From: Chromobacterium sp. ATCC 53434
Lineage (GTDB): Bacteria; Pseudomonadota; Gammaproteobacteria; Burkholderiales; Chromobacteriaceae
DNA: 64,000 nucleotides
Reading direction: 5' to 3'
NCBI RefSeq assembly: GCF_002848345.1
Contig: NZ_CP025429.1
Span: forward strand, 4,650,001 to 4,714,000
This document shows positions 1-5,741 of the stretch, piece after piece. Within the stretch, counting starts at the first letter, position 1; each line of letters starts with the position of its first letter. The translations under genes were made by a program, and so were the position numbers. The notes below the pieces were generated by a model that worked only from the letters and a program-made list of their open reading frames with translations, ran no database searches and was not told where the DNA came from.

Positions 1-13
1 ACGTTGATACGCA

Positions 14-88
14 GGGTGCGTCACCCCGTAGGGTGCGTCACCCGAAGGGCGACGCACCGTTGGCGACGCACCATTAGGCGACACACCG
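14..88. repeat. REP-type palindromic repeat cluster
   Basis: A complete palindromic unit (GGGTGCGTCACCC, a short loop, then GGGCGACGCACC) lies at about 30-58. It is preceded by one half unit and followed by two degenerate half units (61-72 and 76-87). The same unit recurs at 4329, 4415, 4493, 4570, 5023, 5122, 43062, 43126 and 60175. Placed outside genes and next to a RAYT gene elsewhere in the window, it fits the REP/BIME class of repeats mobilised in trans. Confidence 0.85.
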
Positions 89-212
89 CTGGTGCTTGTC
101 AGTTTGAGTGTAGCGGATGGGAGGGAAGGGGGTTTCGCAGCAAACGTCGACAAAGCTTTGTGTCCGCTTTGCGGACGATTGATTTTCATGGCGGGGCTGC
201 CCGCCGGGCAGG

Positions 213-397
213 TCAGGGAGCTGTCTCGCCAGCCATCGCTGAGCGAATCAGAGATTCGCACGCAGACAACACCCCTAGGCGACCCCAGCATCGCTGCGAA
301 ACCCCGTCTCCAAAACCATTCCCAAGGCGCCGGCGAACTCGCGTCGCGCTAACGTCGCGCCGCTCAAACATGCGCCGTCTTAAAACCTTGGGAATGG
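213..397 (-). repeat. Island-flanking inverted element, copy A
   Basis: The core at 328-385 (58 nt) is matched on the opposite strand by 3062-3119 with a single difference. The core is enclosed by 12-nt arms, CCATTCCCAAGG (316-327) and CCTTGGGAATGG (386-397), which are exact reverse complements. Copy B has different arms that are also complementary. Weaker similarity continues leftward, away from the AT-rich island. Read on the minus strand, a 52-codon ORF runs from ATG 371 to TGA 213 and begins MFERRDVSATRVRRRL, as does the ORF in copy B. Whether the ORF is translated is unknown. The near identity of the core compared with its flanks suggests constraint on the nucleic acid rather than the protein. 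Confidence 0.7.
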
Positions 398-687
398 CTT
401 CGGAGCCGGCTTGCTCTGATGGGGATAGGGGTGCGTCGATACCGTCCTTACCGACTCGTACTTTTGGTGGATATGTCGGGAAAGCAGAGAGTGCCGCTCT
501 TGGCCCAACCTATAGCATCACTATTTACCACACAAAACTGTATGAACGTGCGGACAATGCTGCTGATATTAACCCTGGCAATAGCAACTGCAGGGATCCA
601 AACCAGACAGACCATAATTAACTATATACAAATACAAAAAGGTCCATAAGCACTTGATTCGTGTCTATATGGAGCCATATTACAGCT
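398..687. other. Intergenic stretch, no gene supported
   Basis: This is the left edge of the AT-rich block. Base composition changes from GC-rich to AT-rich at about 480-650. Open frames here are short or are continuations of repeat-derived frames with no ribosome binding site or recognisable domain. It contains the 3' flank of the minus-strand deaminase operon; no strong terminator hairpin was seen. Confidence 0.5.
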
Positions 688-879
688 TTAATTATATTTC
701 TGCGCAGCAGTGATAATTTGTTTTATTAAATTAGATGTTTGTTTTTTCTTAATCATATCCGTAATAACTATTACATTTGACTTCAATATATTATTTTCTA
801 TTTCCGAAGATCTATGTTCGGCTTCTTGATATATATCAGGTAACGGTTTAAATAAATCAGGTTGAAATGGTATCTTCAT
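688..879 (-). CDS. Small protein coupled to the AvcD-like gene
   Basis: A 63-aa ORF whose ATG (877-879) lies inside the last codons of the deaminase gene, giving a 23-bp overlap. A purine-rich GGAGAAGG sits just upstream of the ATG, so translation coupled to the deaminase is likely. The product is AT-rich in codon use, like its neighbour. It begins MKIPFQPDLFKPLP, and the C-terminal half is lysine/isoleucine-rich and probably helical. No signal peptide, membrane segment or known domain is visible. The overlap and ribosome binding site make it likely to be real. A role as an accessory or regulatory partner of the deaminase is inference from position only. Confidence 0.55.
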   Translation of the reverse strand: MKIPFQPDLFKPLPDIYQEAEHRSSEIENNILKSNVIVITDMIKKKQTSNLIKQIITAAQKYN

Positions 880-2470
880 GGCCTTCTCCGTTAATATTTA
901 GAATGCCATTTTGAGCAAGAGCTTTCGTAACAATAGCCTCAAGCACATGCAGCGCCTCGACCGATTTTTCATACCTCGGTGTAGCACTTTTTTTATCATA
1001 AGTCAACAGTTTACCATCCTTTTTCCGCCCTGTCGAGTTCGCGACAAAAAGCTCATGATAACGACGTGGTGCCACCCCTTCAAAAGCCAATAATCTTACT
1101 TTCTTTGAATCTTTTTCATTCTCAGTTAGACTATCATTATGCAATTTTGTTGCTAGGCTTTTTCGATATGGTTCAATAAAATAGACTTCAGAAATCCCTG
1201 CTGCAACGATATGACGAGCACAGGAATGGCACGGATATGTAGTGCAGTATAATTTGGCTCCAATTAATGAGCCATTACTATGATTCCCTGCATTTATAAT
1301 TGCATGCATTTCTGCATGCACAGCTCTTGAAAATTCAATCAAGCTTTTCAGGCGGGCACTATTTTGTATAGCTTTTTTTGCAGCTTCTTTCTTATCTGGC
1401 TCAATTATACAAGCGTTAATTAAATCATCAACAACCTGCGTAGCAACAATACCCTTCTCTTTCTCATTATGGCATTCACTTGCTTTATAATTCCAACAAC
1501 GCTTATCTTTATTTTTATCCTCTATATTAATATAGAGTCCGCCATTAAACTTTGGCACATCATTCCAACCAAGTGCTATTATATTGCCAGTTTTATCAGC
1601 AATAGCGGCCCCTACTTGCCTTGAAAGACATGCCGAGTTCTTTGCGGCTGAACTAGCAGCATGCATTGCTGTCTCAGCAGTAGTTGGCGTTATTAAACTT
1701 GTACCAAATAATAAATCTAAAAAACGACGAATTTTCTCCTCAATTTGAGAGGCAGAACTTTCATCAATCCTCAAAAAAAAGTCACTTAACGGAAAAACCT
1801 CAGAAACTTGTTGTCCACTACTTATTTCTTCCCCAGAATCTGTATCTATTAGCAAATGAACGTTTCGCTCTTCAATACCCCTAGATTTTAGTTCTGACAC
1901 TCTATCTTCTATCGGAGAAAAAACTCCGACAGTAAATAATATTTCTCCATATATTAATTGCAACAGCTCTAATTCTTCTGGGTTTTTTATAGAGTTAATT
2001 ATATAGCACACGCGATTTTTGTTTTCATCAATTATACTTTTTTTTCCTGAAGGTGCTTCACGAACCTTCCTATCCATTGCTATTTCACATACAGCTAGTT
2101 CTGCAAGAAATCGCCCTCCATGCGTCCTCCTTAACTCGTCACCAATATCAATCGCCGTCTTTATACGGTTAAACTCAGAGGATGGGTCAACATGCTTTTT
2201 TAATAATTCCTCTCCATATTGGCTTATACTATCGCTCAGCTTTATAATTTTTGAATTATAGTTATAATCTGATTTCAATATATGATCTAATTTTTTAGAA
2301 ACTTCGTGTATTGGAGAACCGATAGGGCCGCATAATGCTATAACCAACTCTTCGGTATAGGTTGATTTCACTGTTTTCTTAGAATCAAATTTACTCCCTT
2401 CAAATAAGTCATTAGCCGCCAACGATTTAGCTGATTCTTTCTTTATAGCTTCTCCCACTGTCCTCTCCAT
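857..2470 (-). CDS. AvcD/anti-phage dCTP deaminase-type protein
   Basis: A 537-aa two-part protein. The N-terminal third begins like a P-loop NTPase (ELVIALCGPIGSP, about residues 42-54), but the glycine-rich loop lacks the Walker lysine. The C-terminal half is a zinc cytidine/deoxycytidylate deaminase: HAE (HAEMHAI, near residue 384) supplies the zinc histidine and catalytic glutamate, and PCHSC (near 412) supplies the two zinc cysteines. This architecture and length match AvcD and the anti-phage dCTP deaminases, which deaminate dC nucleotides on infection and starve phage DNA synthesis. An ordinary dCMP deaminase is about 150-200 aa. The gene is far more AT-rich than the chromosome around it, indicating transfer. 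ATG 2470 has no clear Shine-Dalgarno. The family call is firm on motifs; activity against phage is inferred. Confidence 0.85.
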   Translation of the reverse strand: MERTVGEAIKKESAKSLAANDLFEGSKFDSKKTVKSTYTEELVIALCGPIGSPIHEVSKKLDHILKSDYNYNSKIIKLSDSISQYGEELLKKHVDPSSEFNRIKTAIDIGDELRRTHGGRFLAELAVCEIAMDRKVREAPSGKKSIIDENKNRVCYIINSIKNPEELELLQLIYGEILFTVGVFSPIEDRVSELKSRGIEERNVHLLIDTDSGEEISSGQQVSEVFPLSDFFLRIDESSASQIEEKIRRFLDLLFGTSLITPTTAETAMHAASSAAKNSACLSRQVGAAIADKTGNIIALGWNDVPKFNGGLYINIEDKNKDKRCWNYKASECHNEKEKGIVATQVVDDLINACIIEPDKKEAAKKAIQNSARLKSLIEFSRAVHAEMHAIINAGNHSNGSLIGAKLYCTTYPCHSCARHIVAAGISEVYFIEPYRKSLATKLHNDSLTENEKDSKKVRLLAFEGVAPRRYHELFVANSTGRKKDGKLLTYDKKSATPRYEKSVEALHVLEAIVTKALAQNGILNINGEGHEDTIST

Positions 2471-2760
2471 ATGTTAGTTTCGCAATCATGACAAAAAACA
2501 CTACATCGTTATTGTATATGTATTAACAACACTAGTTGCTGGCATATCATGCCTTAACTCTAAATTAACTCTCTACCTAACCATCTATAAATTTTTCATC
2601 GGAAATTTATACAATATAACTAACTCAGCCGAATACAATACAGTAATTATTGGTTAAGTTAATTATGCTTTCACTCATTCTTACTAGCCTAAAGCATATA
2701 ACTATGTTTGAAATTCTAAGTTTGAATAAATTACCGCATGCTCTCTCAGAGAACCTTAAG
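2471..2760 (-). ncRNA. Candidate AvcI-like RNA/leader region
   Basis: AT-rich non-coding DNA immediately upstream of the deaminase. In known AvcID systems a small RNA (AvcI) encoded at this place inhibits AvcD until phage shut off transcription. Two adjacent small inverted repeats are visible: CAAC/GTTG around 2527-2538 and GGCAT-ATC-ATGCC at 2541-2553. No ORF of useful length is present. The RNA call rests on position and structure only; no sequence match to a known AvcI was tested. Confidence 0.3.
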
Positions 2761-2784
2761 GCTACAAAAACTAATAATCTACTC

Positions 2785-2816
2785 AAAAAAGTAATGGTCC
2801 GCTACGTGTAGCAGAC
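2785..2816 (-). terminator. Hairpin with downstream T-run (minus strand)
   Basis: At 2797-2816, GTCYGCTA and its complement form an 8-bp stem with a 4-nt loop. On the minus strand the one imperfect pair becomes a G-U wobble. Six T residues follow after a gap of about six bases (2785-2790 on the plus strand are A). The gap makes it a weak terminator. It could end a transcript entering the island from the right or bound the candidate leader RNA. Confidence 0.3.
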
Positions 2817-2830
2817 TTCCCCAACACCAA

Positions 2831-3053
2831 TTACTCACCACAAAGGCATTTCCACATAATAGTAAAAATAACAATCAATCCATCTAGAACAAAATATGTG
2901 AGAATACTTAACGGTCGGCCTACCCAGAAGATCACAACAAAAAGTTTCATACTTCGCACTAAGTTCAATCCATCATCACCACCCAAGCAGCCCCCAGCAA
3001 AACCGAACCAACTCGCCCCCATCCCCCTCAGCTCGCGCCGGTCAAAAATCGTT
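2831..3053. other. AT-rich non-coding stretch
   Basis: The right part of the AT-rich island upstream of the deaminase operon. Only short overlapping frames on both strands occur, without ribosome binding sites or recognisable motifs. Composition returns to GC-rich at about 2990-3050, just before the second flanking element. Confidence 0.5.
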
Positions 3054-3252
3054 CGGCCAGGTTTTAAGCCGGCGCATGTTTGAGCGGCGCGACGTTAGCG
3101 CGACGCGAGTTCGCCGGCGCCTGGCCGGGCGGTTTTTGATCGGGGTTTCGCGCGGTGCGGGGGCGGCCTGGGGGTGCCGGGGGGCTGGCCGCGCAGCCCC
3201 CTGGCCCGCCCGCCGGGCGGAACCCGACGTTTTGCAGAACCGACTTATCTAG
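3054..3252 (+). repeat. Island-flanking inverted element, copy B
   Basis: The core at 3062-3119 is the reverse complement of 328-385 with one change. Its arms, CGGCCAGG (3054-3061) and CCTGGCCG (3120-3127), are exact complements but differ from the arms of copy A, so pairing is kept while sequence varies. Similarity to copy A continues outward to about 3240. An ORF of 58 codons runs from ATG 3076 to TAG 3252 and shares the start MFERRDVSATRVRRRL with copy A. Together the two copies bracket the AT-rich deaminase island in divergent orientation. Confidence 0.7.
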
Positions 3253-3558
3253 GAAGCTCCCGGCTATCAGCCCCTCTTTCGTTGTTCCCACCCTCTGCCG
3301 CTGTTAGAATTTCCAACGGTGCTGAACACACCGACACACTAGCGGTTGCCTCGCCCGACAGACGAGGTCCTTGCGTCCATGGCTTTCACAGTCGCGCCTT
3401 GCTCTTGGTGCGTCTGCCGCTTATGGCCGGGTAGCGCGTCTGTCGAAAAATAGCCCGAAAGGACTAAGGCAGCGGGCCGTCTAGTGTCGGTGTTCAAGTA
3501 CCTGGCCACCCCTCTGAACAGGGGGTTTCCGCATGGATAAAACACTAGGAGCCTCATC
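3253..3558. other. Intergenic stretch upstream of the BRO-like gene
   Basis: No convincing gene. Frames here run through the repeat and stop without a domain. The layout (flank element, spacer, then a strong AGGAG site before a short ORF and a BRO-N gene) is reminiscent of phage or satellite regulatory DNA, but nothing here could be assigned to a known family. Confidence 0.4.
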
Positions 3559-3666
3559 ATGGATGCTCGTTTTGTTGCATTCGCCTTTCCTCCCCACCAC
3601 CTCCCATCCGCGCCGCACCTGCCGATCCCTCACGGTCGCGACCACACCTGGGAGCCCCGTCCATGA
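3559..3666 (+). CDS. 35-aa ORF coupled to the BRO-like gene
   Basis: A short ORF that begins MDARFVAFAFPPHH, is proline/histidine-rich and ends WEPRP. It has a good AGGAG site eight bases before its ATG, and its TGA overlaps the ATG of the next gene as ATGA (3663-3666). The following gene has no ribosome site of its own outside this ORF, so the short ORF probably delivers ribosomes to it. The function of the peptide, if any, is unknown. It is too short to place in a family by eye. Confidence 0.55.
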   Translation: MDARFVAFAFPPHHLPSAPHLPIPHGRDHTWEPRP

Positions 3667-4331
3667 ACCACCACATCGACCTGGACGTGAACGCCCCGCT
3701 GCGCCTCGACTACGCCAAAGACCTGCCGCTGCGCGTGATCCGCCGCCAGGAAGGCTTCTGGTTCGTCGCCGCCGAAATCGCCGCCGCGCTGAAACAGGAC
3801 GTCGACACGCTGCTGCCAGCACTGGAAGCGCCGGCCGGACGCCTGCTGTTACTGGCAGGCGAGACCGAGCCCGTGCTGTGCCTGTCCGAAGGCGAGCTGG
3901 ACGAAACGGTGCGGCGGGTGAAGACGCCGGGCGCGCGGCGCTTGCGGCGCTGGTGGAAGGAGGAGACGCGGCCGGCGCTGCTGCATCAGGGCGGCCCGGC
4001 CACGACGGCGGAGAGCCTGCATCTGGCGCTGGCGCTCGCCGCCGAGGCGGCGCAACAGGTCAGCCGGGCGGTGATGGAGGCGGTGCTGCGCGGCCCCGGC
4101 CCGTGGCAGCATTCGCGCTGGGTGGTGGCGCTGGACTACGAGCGCCGCAACCGGCAGCGCTGGCCGCACGGCAAGCTGATCGGCCTCTCCAGCTCCGTCG
4201 CCACGCTGGAAGGGCTGGCCGAGCTGATCGCCGAGCCGGGCCGGATGCCGGTCAACAACGCCGACCTGGTCAAGCTGGCGGCAGCCTGCCATTTGCGGCT
4301 GGCGGAGCGGATGGGACGCGCTCAGGCGTAG
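3663..4331 (+). CDS. BRO-N/phage antirepressor-like protein
   Basis: A 222-aa protein. Residues about 15-50 (LPLRVIRRQEGFWFVAAEIA, then an amphipathic helix) match the BRO-N pattern, in which a hydrophobic strand ends in WFVA and is followed by a helix. BRO-N domains occur in phage antirepressors and bind DNA. The rest (about 95-220) is helical and alanine-rich, without a KilA or P22AR domain that I can recognise. No signal peptide or membrane segment is present. It starts inside the stop of a 35-aa ORF (ATGA overlap). With the neighbouring repeats and RAYT it suggests a decayed phage-derived or satellite region. Regulation of a phage gene is inference. Confidence 0.55.
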   Translation: MNHHIDLDVNAPLRLDYAKDLPLRVIRRQEGFWFVAAEIAAALKQDVDTLLPALEAPAGRLLLLAGETEPVLCLSEGELDETVRRVKTPGARRLRRWWKEETRPALLHQGGPATTAESLHLALALAAEAAQQVSRAVMEAVLRGPGPWQHSRWVVALDYERRNRQRWPHGKLIGLSSSVATLEGLAELIAEPGRMPVNNADLVKLAAACHLRLAERMGRAQA

Positions 4332-4374
4332 GGTGCGTCACCCGCAGGGCGACGCACCGATGGGGCGACATACC
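4329..4374. repeat. REP unit after the BRO-like gene
   Basis: One complete palindrome (GGGTGCGTCACCC/GGGCGACGCACC, 4331-4358) overlaps the stop codon of the BRO-like gene and is followed by a degenerate half unit. It could act as a 3' stem-loop in that mRNA. Confidence 0.8.
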
Positions 4375-4414
4375 GCCATCACGACCATGCTCCGCTTGCC
4401 CATGTCCGGCAAAA

Positions 4415-4601
4415 CGGTGCGTCGCCCTGCGGGTGACGCACCCTACGATTCGCACGGAGCTGTACGGTTGCAGGCGGCCGCGCATCGGCCAACGGTGCGT
4501 CGCCCTCCGGGTGACGCACCCTACGATTCGCATGGAGCTGTACGGTTGCCACGGCCGCGCATCGGCCAACGGTGCGTCGCCCTTCGGGTGACGCACCCTA
4601 C
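4415..4601. repeat. Tandem array of REP units, period 77-78 bp
   Basis: Three REP palindromes start at 4416, 4494 and 4571. They are separated by nearly identical spacers containing TTCGCAYGGAGCTGTACGG and CGGCCGCGCATCGGCCAAC. The repeat unit is therefore palindrome plus spacer, spaced 78 then 77 bp. The palindromes are inverted relative to the one at 4331, making a BIME-like composite. A tail of short GAAACACACC-like repeats follows to about 4625. Confidence 0.85.
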
Positions 4602-4653
4602 GAAACACACCCTACGAAACACACCGTACGAGACGCGCCGTACGATTGGCGGT

Positions 4654-4959
4654 TTATTGGCGCACGAAGCTGTACTGTTGCAGCAGCTTCTTCACGTCCT
4701 TGTCCTGGCCCCATTTCTTGGCCAGCGCCGGATACAGCGCCTTCGCCTTGCCGCAGGCATCGTCGATGCCGGCCTGGATTTCGCGCTTGTTCTCGTCCGG
4801 CAGGTCCGGGTCCCACTCGCCGGCGAAATGCTCGCAGGCCTCGGCGTTTTCCTTGAACGTCTGGACATCCTTGCTCATGTTCCCCCCGGCGATGGCGGCG
4901 GCGGGGATCAAGATCAGGCAGGCGGCAAACATGGCCTTGATCGATTGGCGGTCCAACAT
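4654..4959 (-). CDS. Small exported protein of unknown function
   Basis: A 101-aa protein with a classical signal peptide (MLDRQSIKAMFAACLILIPAA, cleavage after AIAGG). The mature part of about 75 residues has two cysteines (EACEHFAGEW and DDACGKA) that could form a periplasmic disulfide, and is otherwise helical and charged. AAGGA lies about eight bases upstream of ATG 4959. A pair of 24-bp direct repeats sits just upstream of the start. It appears monocistronic and lies between REP clusters. No function is proposed. Confidence 0.75.
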   Translation of the reverse strand: MLDRQSIKAMFAACLILIPAAAIAGGNMSKDVQTFKENAEACEHFAGEWDPDLPDENKREIQAGIDDACGKAKALYPALAKKWGQDKDVKKLLQQYSFVRQ

Positions 4960-4969
4960 TTCATTCCTT

Positions 4970-5017
4970 CATCTAAATGGAAATCGGCGCCGACATCTAA
5001 CTGGAAATCGACGCCAA
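4970..5017. repeat. Two 24-bp direct repeats upstream of the small exported gene
   Basis: Two tandem copies at 4970-4993 and 4994-5017 share CATCTAAMTGGAAATCGRCG and differ at three positions. They lie directly upstream of the minus-strand gene starting at 4959, in the position of a promoter or operator. A tandem regulator-binding site is possible; a neutral duplication is equally possible. Confidence 0.5.
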
Positions 5018-5106: not shown

Positions 5107-5154
5107 CGGTGCGTCATCCAACGGTGCGTCGCCCCGATGGGGTGACGCACCCTA
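5107..5154. repeat. REP pair abutting the RAYT stop codon
   Basis: A degenerate half unit (5107-5118) is followed by a complete palindrome, GGTGCGTCGCCCC/GGGGTGACGCACC (5123-5151). The last bases of the repeat include the TAG stop of the transposase. This intimate placement at the 3' end is typical of RAYT genes, which are flanked by the REPs they are thought to mobilise. Confidence 0.85.
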
Positions 5155-5667
5155 CCTTGGCGTGGCTTCGCCGGCCCAGTCCCTGGGCAAGATTCCCTGC
5201 CTGACATAGCGGTGGAAGCTGGAATACGGCCACTCGGCCACCCGCTCCACATGGCCGTGCTTGACCGGATTGTAATGAAGATAATCCAGATGCCGCGCCA
5301 GATCGGCCTCGTCCCGGATCCGGTGTTCCCAGTAGCGCCGCTGCCAGATGCCGCGCTCCTTGCGCCGCGTGCGCGACGAGGACAGGCTTTCCCCGCTTGC
5401 GATGCGCTTGGAAAACGTCATCTTGATCAAGCGCCAGCGCAGGGCGAAATCGGCGTCTTCGGCCGGCAGCTCCAGCACGCAATGCAAGTGGTCCGGCAGC
5501 ACCACCCAGCCGTGGATGACGAAGGGGTGTCTGGCCTTGACCGCGCGCACCGCCTCCCGCAGCGCATCCACATGCCGCACCAGCAAGTCGTTGCCGTGCC
5601 GCCGCCATAGCGCCACCGTGAAGAAATAGGTGCCGCCGGGCGTCCAGCAGCGTCGGTAATCCGGCAT
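5152..5667 (-). CDS. REP-associated tyrosine transposase (RAYT)
   Basis: A 171-aa protein of the Y1 HUH endonuclease/transposase superfamily (IS200-like; Pfam Y1_Tnp). It begins MPDYRRCWTPGGTYFF, as RAYTs do. The HUH metal motif is HLH in VVLPDHLHCV, and the nucleophilic tyrosine is in YLHYNPVKHG. In E. coli, RAYT/TnpA-REP cleaves single-stranded REP DNA. ATG 5667 was chosen over an in-frame upstream start at 5730 because family similarity begins there. There are no terminal inverted repeats of its own. REPs sit at its 3' end and, in degraded form, upstream, matching a domesticated transposase that acts on dispersed REPs. The reading frame is intact, so it may be active. Confidence 0.9.
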   Translation of the reverse strand: MPDYRRCWTPGGTYFFTVALWRRHGNDLLVRHVDALREAVRAVKARHPFVIHGWVVLPDHLHCVLELPAEDADFALRWRLIKMTFSKRIASGESLSSSRTRRKERGIWQRRYWEHRIRDEADLARHLDYLHYNPVKHGHVERVAEWPYSSFHRYVRQGILPRDWAGEATPR

Positions 5668-5741
5668 GGCCGTTCTCCGCGAAGCGGGAGCGCTATCGTT
5701 GCATCCCGGAACCCCATCCTGCAAACCCACCTTATAACGTA

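Follow-up and report, generated by a model that had tools for sequence, protein, structure and literature searches.

A folded repeat family whose inverted pairs may serve as a dock for exchangeable genes in Chromobacterium and related bacteria

Two nearly identical sequences face each other in opposite orientation around an AT-rich stretch of the chromosome of Chromobacterium sp. ATCC 53434, which raises the question of what they are and what they have to do with the genes between them. The window, i.e. the whole stretch of DNA analysed, comprises 64 000 nucleotides (contig NZ_CP025429.1, positions 4,650,001 to 4,714,000), and coordinates given without a locus name refer to it. The reading that we favour, with a probability of roughly 0.42, is that a mobile, folded repeat provides, through its inverted pairs, a dock for cargo genes, the exchange step being the part that we infer.

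The window elements and their repeat family

The two cores of 58 nt, one at 328-385 in minus sense and the other at 3062-3119 in plus sense, are identical but for a single position, and each is closed by complementary arms of its own, as an earlier note on this DNA had stated and as was found again here. The left arms pair over at least 12 bp, those of the right element over 8 bp or, if G.T pairs are included, over about 20. A stretch of 43 nt from the core (up to three mismatches) was found at two sites in the window, both at these cores, and in none of 100 shuffles. Folding as RNA resulted in z scores of -5.4 (left) and -6.0 (right), folding as DNA in z scores of -7.0 and -5.0, in each case better than all 200 dinucleotide shuffles. 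A chance origin of the core pair is excluded. The GC content is 32-40% at about 400-3000 and mostly 58-74% outside; based on these steps at about 400 and 3000, both elements lie at the edges of an AT-rich block. The features of the region are as follows:

160..450, minus strand: left element, arm type B (our naming), core 328-385, delimited by similarity to copies of ~268 bp; ends approximate and placed by eye, the 3' end facing outward with a hairpin at ~161-175 and the 5' end facing inward at ~440-450
688..879, minus strand: small ORF of 63 amino acids in overlap with the avcD 3' end; no family assigned
857..2470, minus strand: predicted anti-phage dCTP deaminase of the AvcD family, 537 amino acids (NF041025, 480 bits, cut-off 400; PADLOC dCTPase, 4.5e-166; PF00383)
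3000..3232, plus strand: right element, arm type D (our naming), core 3062-3119, ends approximate and placed by eye; the 5' end faces inward and the 3' end outward, where no terminal hairpin was recognised
3425..3515, plus strand: match to sRNA-Xcc1 (RF02221), on the 3' side of the right core and ~0.3 kb away
3663..4331, plus strand: protein of 222 amino acids after the sRNA, no PADLOC, NCBIfam or Pfam match
5152..5730, minus strand: RAYT-like gene (Y1_Tnp, 20.4 bits, thus short of the 23 bits that Pfam requires), close to palindromic repeats

A search of the window genome with the left copy identified eight places (seven distinct rows), and in the three-helix hairpin derived from these eight copies 96.9% of 159 cells were paired, with 10 pairs changed on both sides. 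The same held for 117 distinct cores, in which 97.3% of 2677 cells across 23 pairs were paired, against at most 49.6% in controls with a slid register, and cells changed on both sides numbered 647, against 187.7 (s.d. 9.9) in shuffles. An alignment of 24 longer stretches extended the structure by an outer arm and two further hairpins toward the 3' side. The window elements belong to a non-coding repeat family with a unit length of about 270 bp and a hairpin that covaries strongly; one strand would fold into a long interrupted hairpin and then smaller ones. The covariation bears out the earlier note in its view of a structured element, and the core that it proposed to look for is present both elsewhere in the genome and in relatives, so that the element is not confined to this place. 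No Rfam family matched the window elements (window 1-5000, E up to 1) or the elements in 20 loci at gathering scores, and literature searches with motif strings and word combinations, covering abstracts of mostly non-subscription journals, yielded no recognised description. Similar strings may exist in other proteobacteria.

A model built from the eight copies identified 10 copies in the window genome at E <1e-5, together with an eleventh, weak one. It matched 32 of 61 genomes of the family, including 18 of the 19 belonging to the window's genus (its own genome counted), and 10 of 369 genomes in an even draw of the class at E 1e-4, the window's own again among them. Among the matches listed, at least eight genera were represented (Chromobacterium, Aquitalea, Pseudogulbenkiania, Crenobacter, Craterilacuibacter, Chitinibacter, Deefgea and Rheinheimera). 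Across 19 genomes, many of the matches to one copy had near-constant starts and stops in unrelated flanks, delimiting a unit of ~268 bp, and shorter matches were also present. A solo insertion was identified between convergent genes, which are separated by 382 bp in the window genome and by 51 bp in a relative lacking the element. The recurring ends and dispersed copies expected of MITEs and composite transposons are both found in this family. A phage or plasmid origin was not retained: blastn of window 3000-3240 against phage and plasmid collections resulted in no match in either, and the exact core pattern was present in three viral contigs.

Orthologous elements are conserved nearly throughout; the exception is the tip stem, which has been substituted as a whole block with its complementarity preserved. 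In the 438 pairs of copies that reach 85% identity in both arms, mean identity was 94.5% in stem 1 and 78.5% in the tip stem, the latter falling below 70% in 134 pairs, figures that come from related copies and from a tip of only ~13 positions. The same tip words were found with different stem-1 sequences, suggesting exchange of tip stems between copies. Such wholesale replacement with complementarity kept is unusual and asks for a mechanism. The window pair combines one core with two arm types, even sharing a mismatched pair in the tip stem, and is read as the probable result of a recent conversion or exchange of the core. Near-identical cores were rejected as a hallmark of inverted pairs enclosing genes (brackets), as two different tip stems are present in 20 of the 22 brackets kept after de-duplication, a count from which the window's own bracket had been dropped.

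Orientation of neighbouring copies and the genes between them

Neighbouring copies are designated -+ if their 5' ends point inward, +- in the reverse case and same if they point the same way. Orientation was counted in 15 genomes, namely the window's own, eight others picked mostly for few contigs, five of Rheinheimera and G085. Six of these were not chosen blindly, the Rheinheimera genomes having been reached via pair-bearing loci and G085 via AvcD. The numbers of -+, +- and same neighbours, in this order, were:

All 15 genomes (223 copies): 18, 0, 9 at 450-3000 bp; 18, 6, 6 at <450 bp; 16, 33, 49 at >20 kb
Nine genomes not reached through pairs or AvcD: 5, 0, 7 at 450-3000 bp; 9, 1, 5 at <450 bp
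Five Rheinheimera genomes: 9, 0, 1 at 450-3000 bp; 4, 0, 1 at <450 bp
G085: 4, 0, 1 at 450-3000 bp; 5, 5, 0 at <450 bp
Five further genomes (among the matches listed): 1, 0, 2 at 450-3000 bp; 6, 0, 0 at <450 bp

According to the nine blindly chosen genomes, the absence of +- neighbours holds at 450-3000 bp, but same-way neighbours outnumber the -+ ones; P values for such counts are rough because the copies are related. The orientation list omitted 9 of 130 and 1 of 11 rows, all of them weak, with no single fixed cut-off, and restoring these ten altered no count below 3 kb. In addition, -+ pairs were found again in six of ten distant loci inspected. The nearly empty pairs have cores 137-310 bp apart, and the spacer of close pairs, judged by eye, consists of two 5' halves and a short unconserved middle. 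One genome contains alternating -+ -+ -+ units, empty and filled side by side. A frame of at least 130 amino acids was present inside 17 of 18 brackets of 450-3000 bp, the exception being in G017.

The gene between the window elements has both the curated family score and the zinc deaminase domain expected of anti-phage dCTP deaminases and is a predicted defence gene. A relative of it (36% identity) lies between elements of its own in G015. The cargo of other brackets is diverse, often rare and often AT-rich, and includes a protein matching HEPN marginally, a MerR regulator, a beta-barrel protein, a zinc-ribbon/ankyrin protein and many others that were assigned to no family. Five of the 10 AvcD genes in the 61 family genomes are within 1 kb of an element (four of nine with the window's gene set aside; ~0.12 expected from copy density by our own arithmetic) and a sixth is beside a weak match. 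The four remote ones are 5, 25 and 27 kb from the nearest element among the matches listed or, in one case, on a contig without any. This proximity is not independent proof, since accessory genes and such repeats share variable regions. In two places (L199 5724-7259, G018:C29; and G013:C56:41779-43446), AvcD is directly beside a GST gene with no element between them, and this GST gene also flanks the window island. Just outside a bracket of G015, a ThsA/PDC-S25-like protein is encoded (L049 3937-5301).

Orthologous sites and the window island

Two comparisons within Rheinheimera, L140 with L202 and L111 with L137, revealed orthologous flanks and two orthologous elements around different genes, and in both the differences start near the inner ends of both elements. 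As one chromosomal site can carry different genes between repeat pairs of the same kind, the pair may be a dock for exchangeable genes. Among 22 genomes of the genus searched for the L140 site, one has the pair with cargo 1, one (G062) the pair with cargo 2 and a further insert of ~3.9 kb beyond the right element, and one a solo element; in four relatives 83-138 bp separate the aligned flanking parts, and the remaining genomes have other or unresolved content. Cargo 1 has nine relatives at E 1e-3 among 5.8 billion proteins, and a gene at another place in the genome of a different species matches it with 97% identity over 880 bp. No recognised element was found within 1.5 kb of this donor-like copy, which stands behind a frame of 390 amino acids (L235 352-1524), the end of which has partly travelled along. 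The frame had been taken by eye for a polymorphic toxin, the partner of cargo 1, a guess that family searches did not support (no match in Pfam, NCBIfam or PADLOC), and to call cargo 1 of L140 an orphan immunity gene is therefore also a guess.

The motif CCCGATGCYTTTGGCAATGCGTTGGG occurs at the transition from cargo to spacer in two brackets (L129 3673, minus strand, and L140 4001) and also behind the donor-like cargo 1 (L235 2450), and may be a second, cargo-borne end. At one intergenic site (L018 compared with L114 and L091), the elements of related species differ in arm type and orientation.

At the window locus itself, the aligned flanks are 85-96 bp apart in four relatives (G006, G009, G012 and G015), where the window genome has a block of ~5.9 kb, from about window -20 to about 5940. 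Besides avcD and the two elements, the block comprises the sRNA-Xcc1 module, short palindromes and the RAYT gene, and its junctions are outside the elements, by ~0.2 kb on the left and ~2.7 kb on the right, which makes the bracket one layer of a larger island. The earlier note had placed the elements at the edges of a foreign block; this applies to the AT-rich block and fails for the block missing from sister genomes, the junctions of which do not coincide with the elements, an outcome that the note itself had listed as refuting its reading. Its interpretation is, overall, partly supported. Unlike these junctions, the Rheinheimera swaps speak for the elements as borders of the cargo.

Other contents of the block recur near elements. 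A cluster of frames similar to the 222-residue protein covers 12 element loci. Antisense RNAs of the C4 or sRNA-Xcc1 type were identified in nine of 20 element loci scanned, some of which had been chosen for a shared module (L149, L115, L217, L051, L131, L046, L050, L055 and L067); in five loci and the window the RNA is ~0.3 kb from the core on the 3' side, and in L046 and L067 it is inside the bracket. The palindromic GGTGCGTC repeats and the RAYT-like gene occupy window 1-115, 4330-4610 and 5152-5730, and a DNA relative of this RAYT (79% identity) lies between elements in G015.

Readings of the pairs and comparison with known systems

The reading as a dock builds on what is directly observed, namely the repeat family with its fold, the bias in local orientation, the presence of differing cargo at orthologous sites and the empty sites. 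Inverted copies with their 5' ends inward would form the dock, nearly empty or holding one or a few genes, and cargo would be replaced while the docking elements and the chromosomal flanks stay. The simplest route would be recombination of a resident pair with an incoming fragment carrying the same kind of pair, so that cargo would enter at the elements, via homologous recombination or an undiscovered trans-acting factor. Whether as a DNA recombination site or as RNA, the action of the element is putative.

The strongest competitor, to which we give about one chance in four, is a MITE-like transposon with an undiscovered trans-acting transposase, nearby inverted copies being the ends of a composite transposon. 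Consistent with it are the recurring ends of the repeat, its 10-31 copies in many genomes, the inverted pairs and the empty sites. However, no autonomous relative was recognised in the fetched loci (40 clusters listed), no target-site duplication was identified at the empty sites (the L140 site and the window locus, both too diverged to call one) and species differ in the arm type found at one orthologous site. A mobilising enzyme was not established for the element: many of the 40 clusters are shadow frames over the element itself, and the only recurring transposase-like family among them is RAYT, in six element loci, two of which are the same place. Despite these frames, the window's RAYT as mobiliser is argued against by its distribution: at E 1e-20, a level that distant RAYTs would escape, it is absent from 11 genomes carrying 4-31 elements (G001, G002, G005, G006, G017, G019, G020, G029, G032, G035 and G040). 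An IS110-like transposase frame, recognised by eye, lies between two same-way (+) elements (L129 4671-5720).

A transcribed structured RNA (a regulator, terminator or RNA antitoxin), with pairs arising by accumulation in the same variable intergenic regions, is unlikely, at some one in five. It would agree with the antisense RNAs near elements, with at least one copy between convergent genes, with better folding of the sense strand in 183 of 194 copies and with 42 G-U against 8 A-C cells in the outer arm (43 other mismatches, 237 Watson-Crick cells). However, the strand difference is mostly base composition (-6.9 of -8.4 kcal/mol), G-U pairs are few in the core helices (45 of 2605 paired cells), no Rfam family matches and the -+ bias is unexpected for independent RNA genes. 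G-U content as a discriminator between RNA and DNA was indecisive, the outer-arm excess standing against the largely compositional strand difference.

Slightly more doubtful still is an extension of the dock to a new gene-cassette system, in which inverted, folded single-strand sites would be a platform for storing one gene at a time, often for defence or immunity, and exchanging it between bacteria, and the hypervariable, self-complementary tip stem a pairing or specificity tag read by an undiscovered factor. Least probable is that elements and accessory genes gather independently in intergenic hot spots, the window block being a pile-up of unrelated insertions: the several unrelated mobile features of the 5.9-kb insert, its junctions away from the elements and the frequent same-way neighbours in blindly chosen genomes favour this by-product, against which stand the lack of +- neighbours at cargo distances in 15 genomes and in five more (among the matches listed) and the two comparisons of orthologous sites in which cargo differences set in close to where both elements end on their inner sides.

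MITEs and composite transposons involve short repeats, non-autonomous and inverted, with genes between them. The element is likewise short and encloses genes in this way, but has a covarying folded core and a block-replaced tip stem. The AID and rAID clusters of Bacteroidales store protective single genes in mobile clusters; such cargo is a likeness, with an immunity function here only a guess, whereas no tyrosine recombinase was recognised beside brackets in the clusters listed. REP and REPIN elements are mobilised in trans by RAYT transposases; in contrast to those with a cognate RAYT, the presence of the present element does not track the window's RAYT. REP, REPIN and BIME sequences are palindromic extragenic repeats in alternating orientation (PMC2817692), and to that extent the element resembles them. 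It differs in its size of ~270 bp, its three core helices, its tens of copies and the genes between its pairs.

The attC sites of integrons have the consensus boxes RYYYAAC ... GTTRRRY. An attC identity of the element was rejected, as the box pair (40-130 nt apart) was found in 0 of 194 copies, against a mean of 2.45 in shuffles. Like integron cassettes, the family combines folded non-coding sites with rare, mostly uncharacterised single-gene cargo and forms arrays in one genome; unlike attC, its elements flank the cargo on either side as an inverted pair and carry conserved internal loops in place of the R and L boxes. Should the bracket work as a dock, searches for -+ pairs could uncover a reservoir of single accessory and defence genes in proteobacterial genomes, as attC reveals cassettes.
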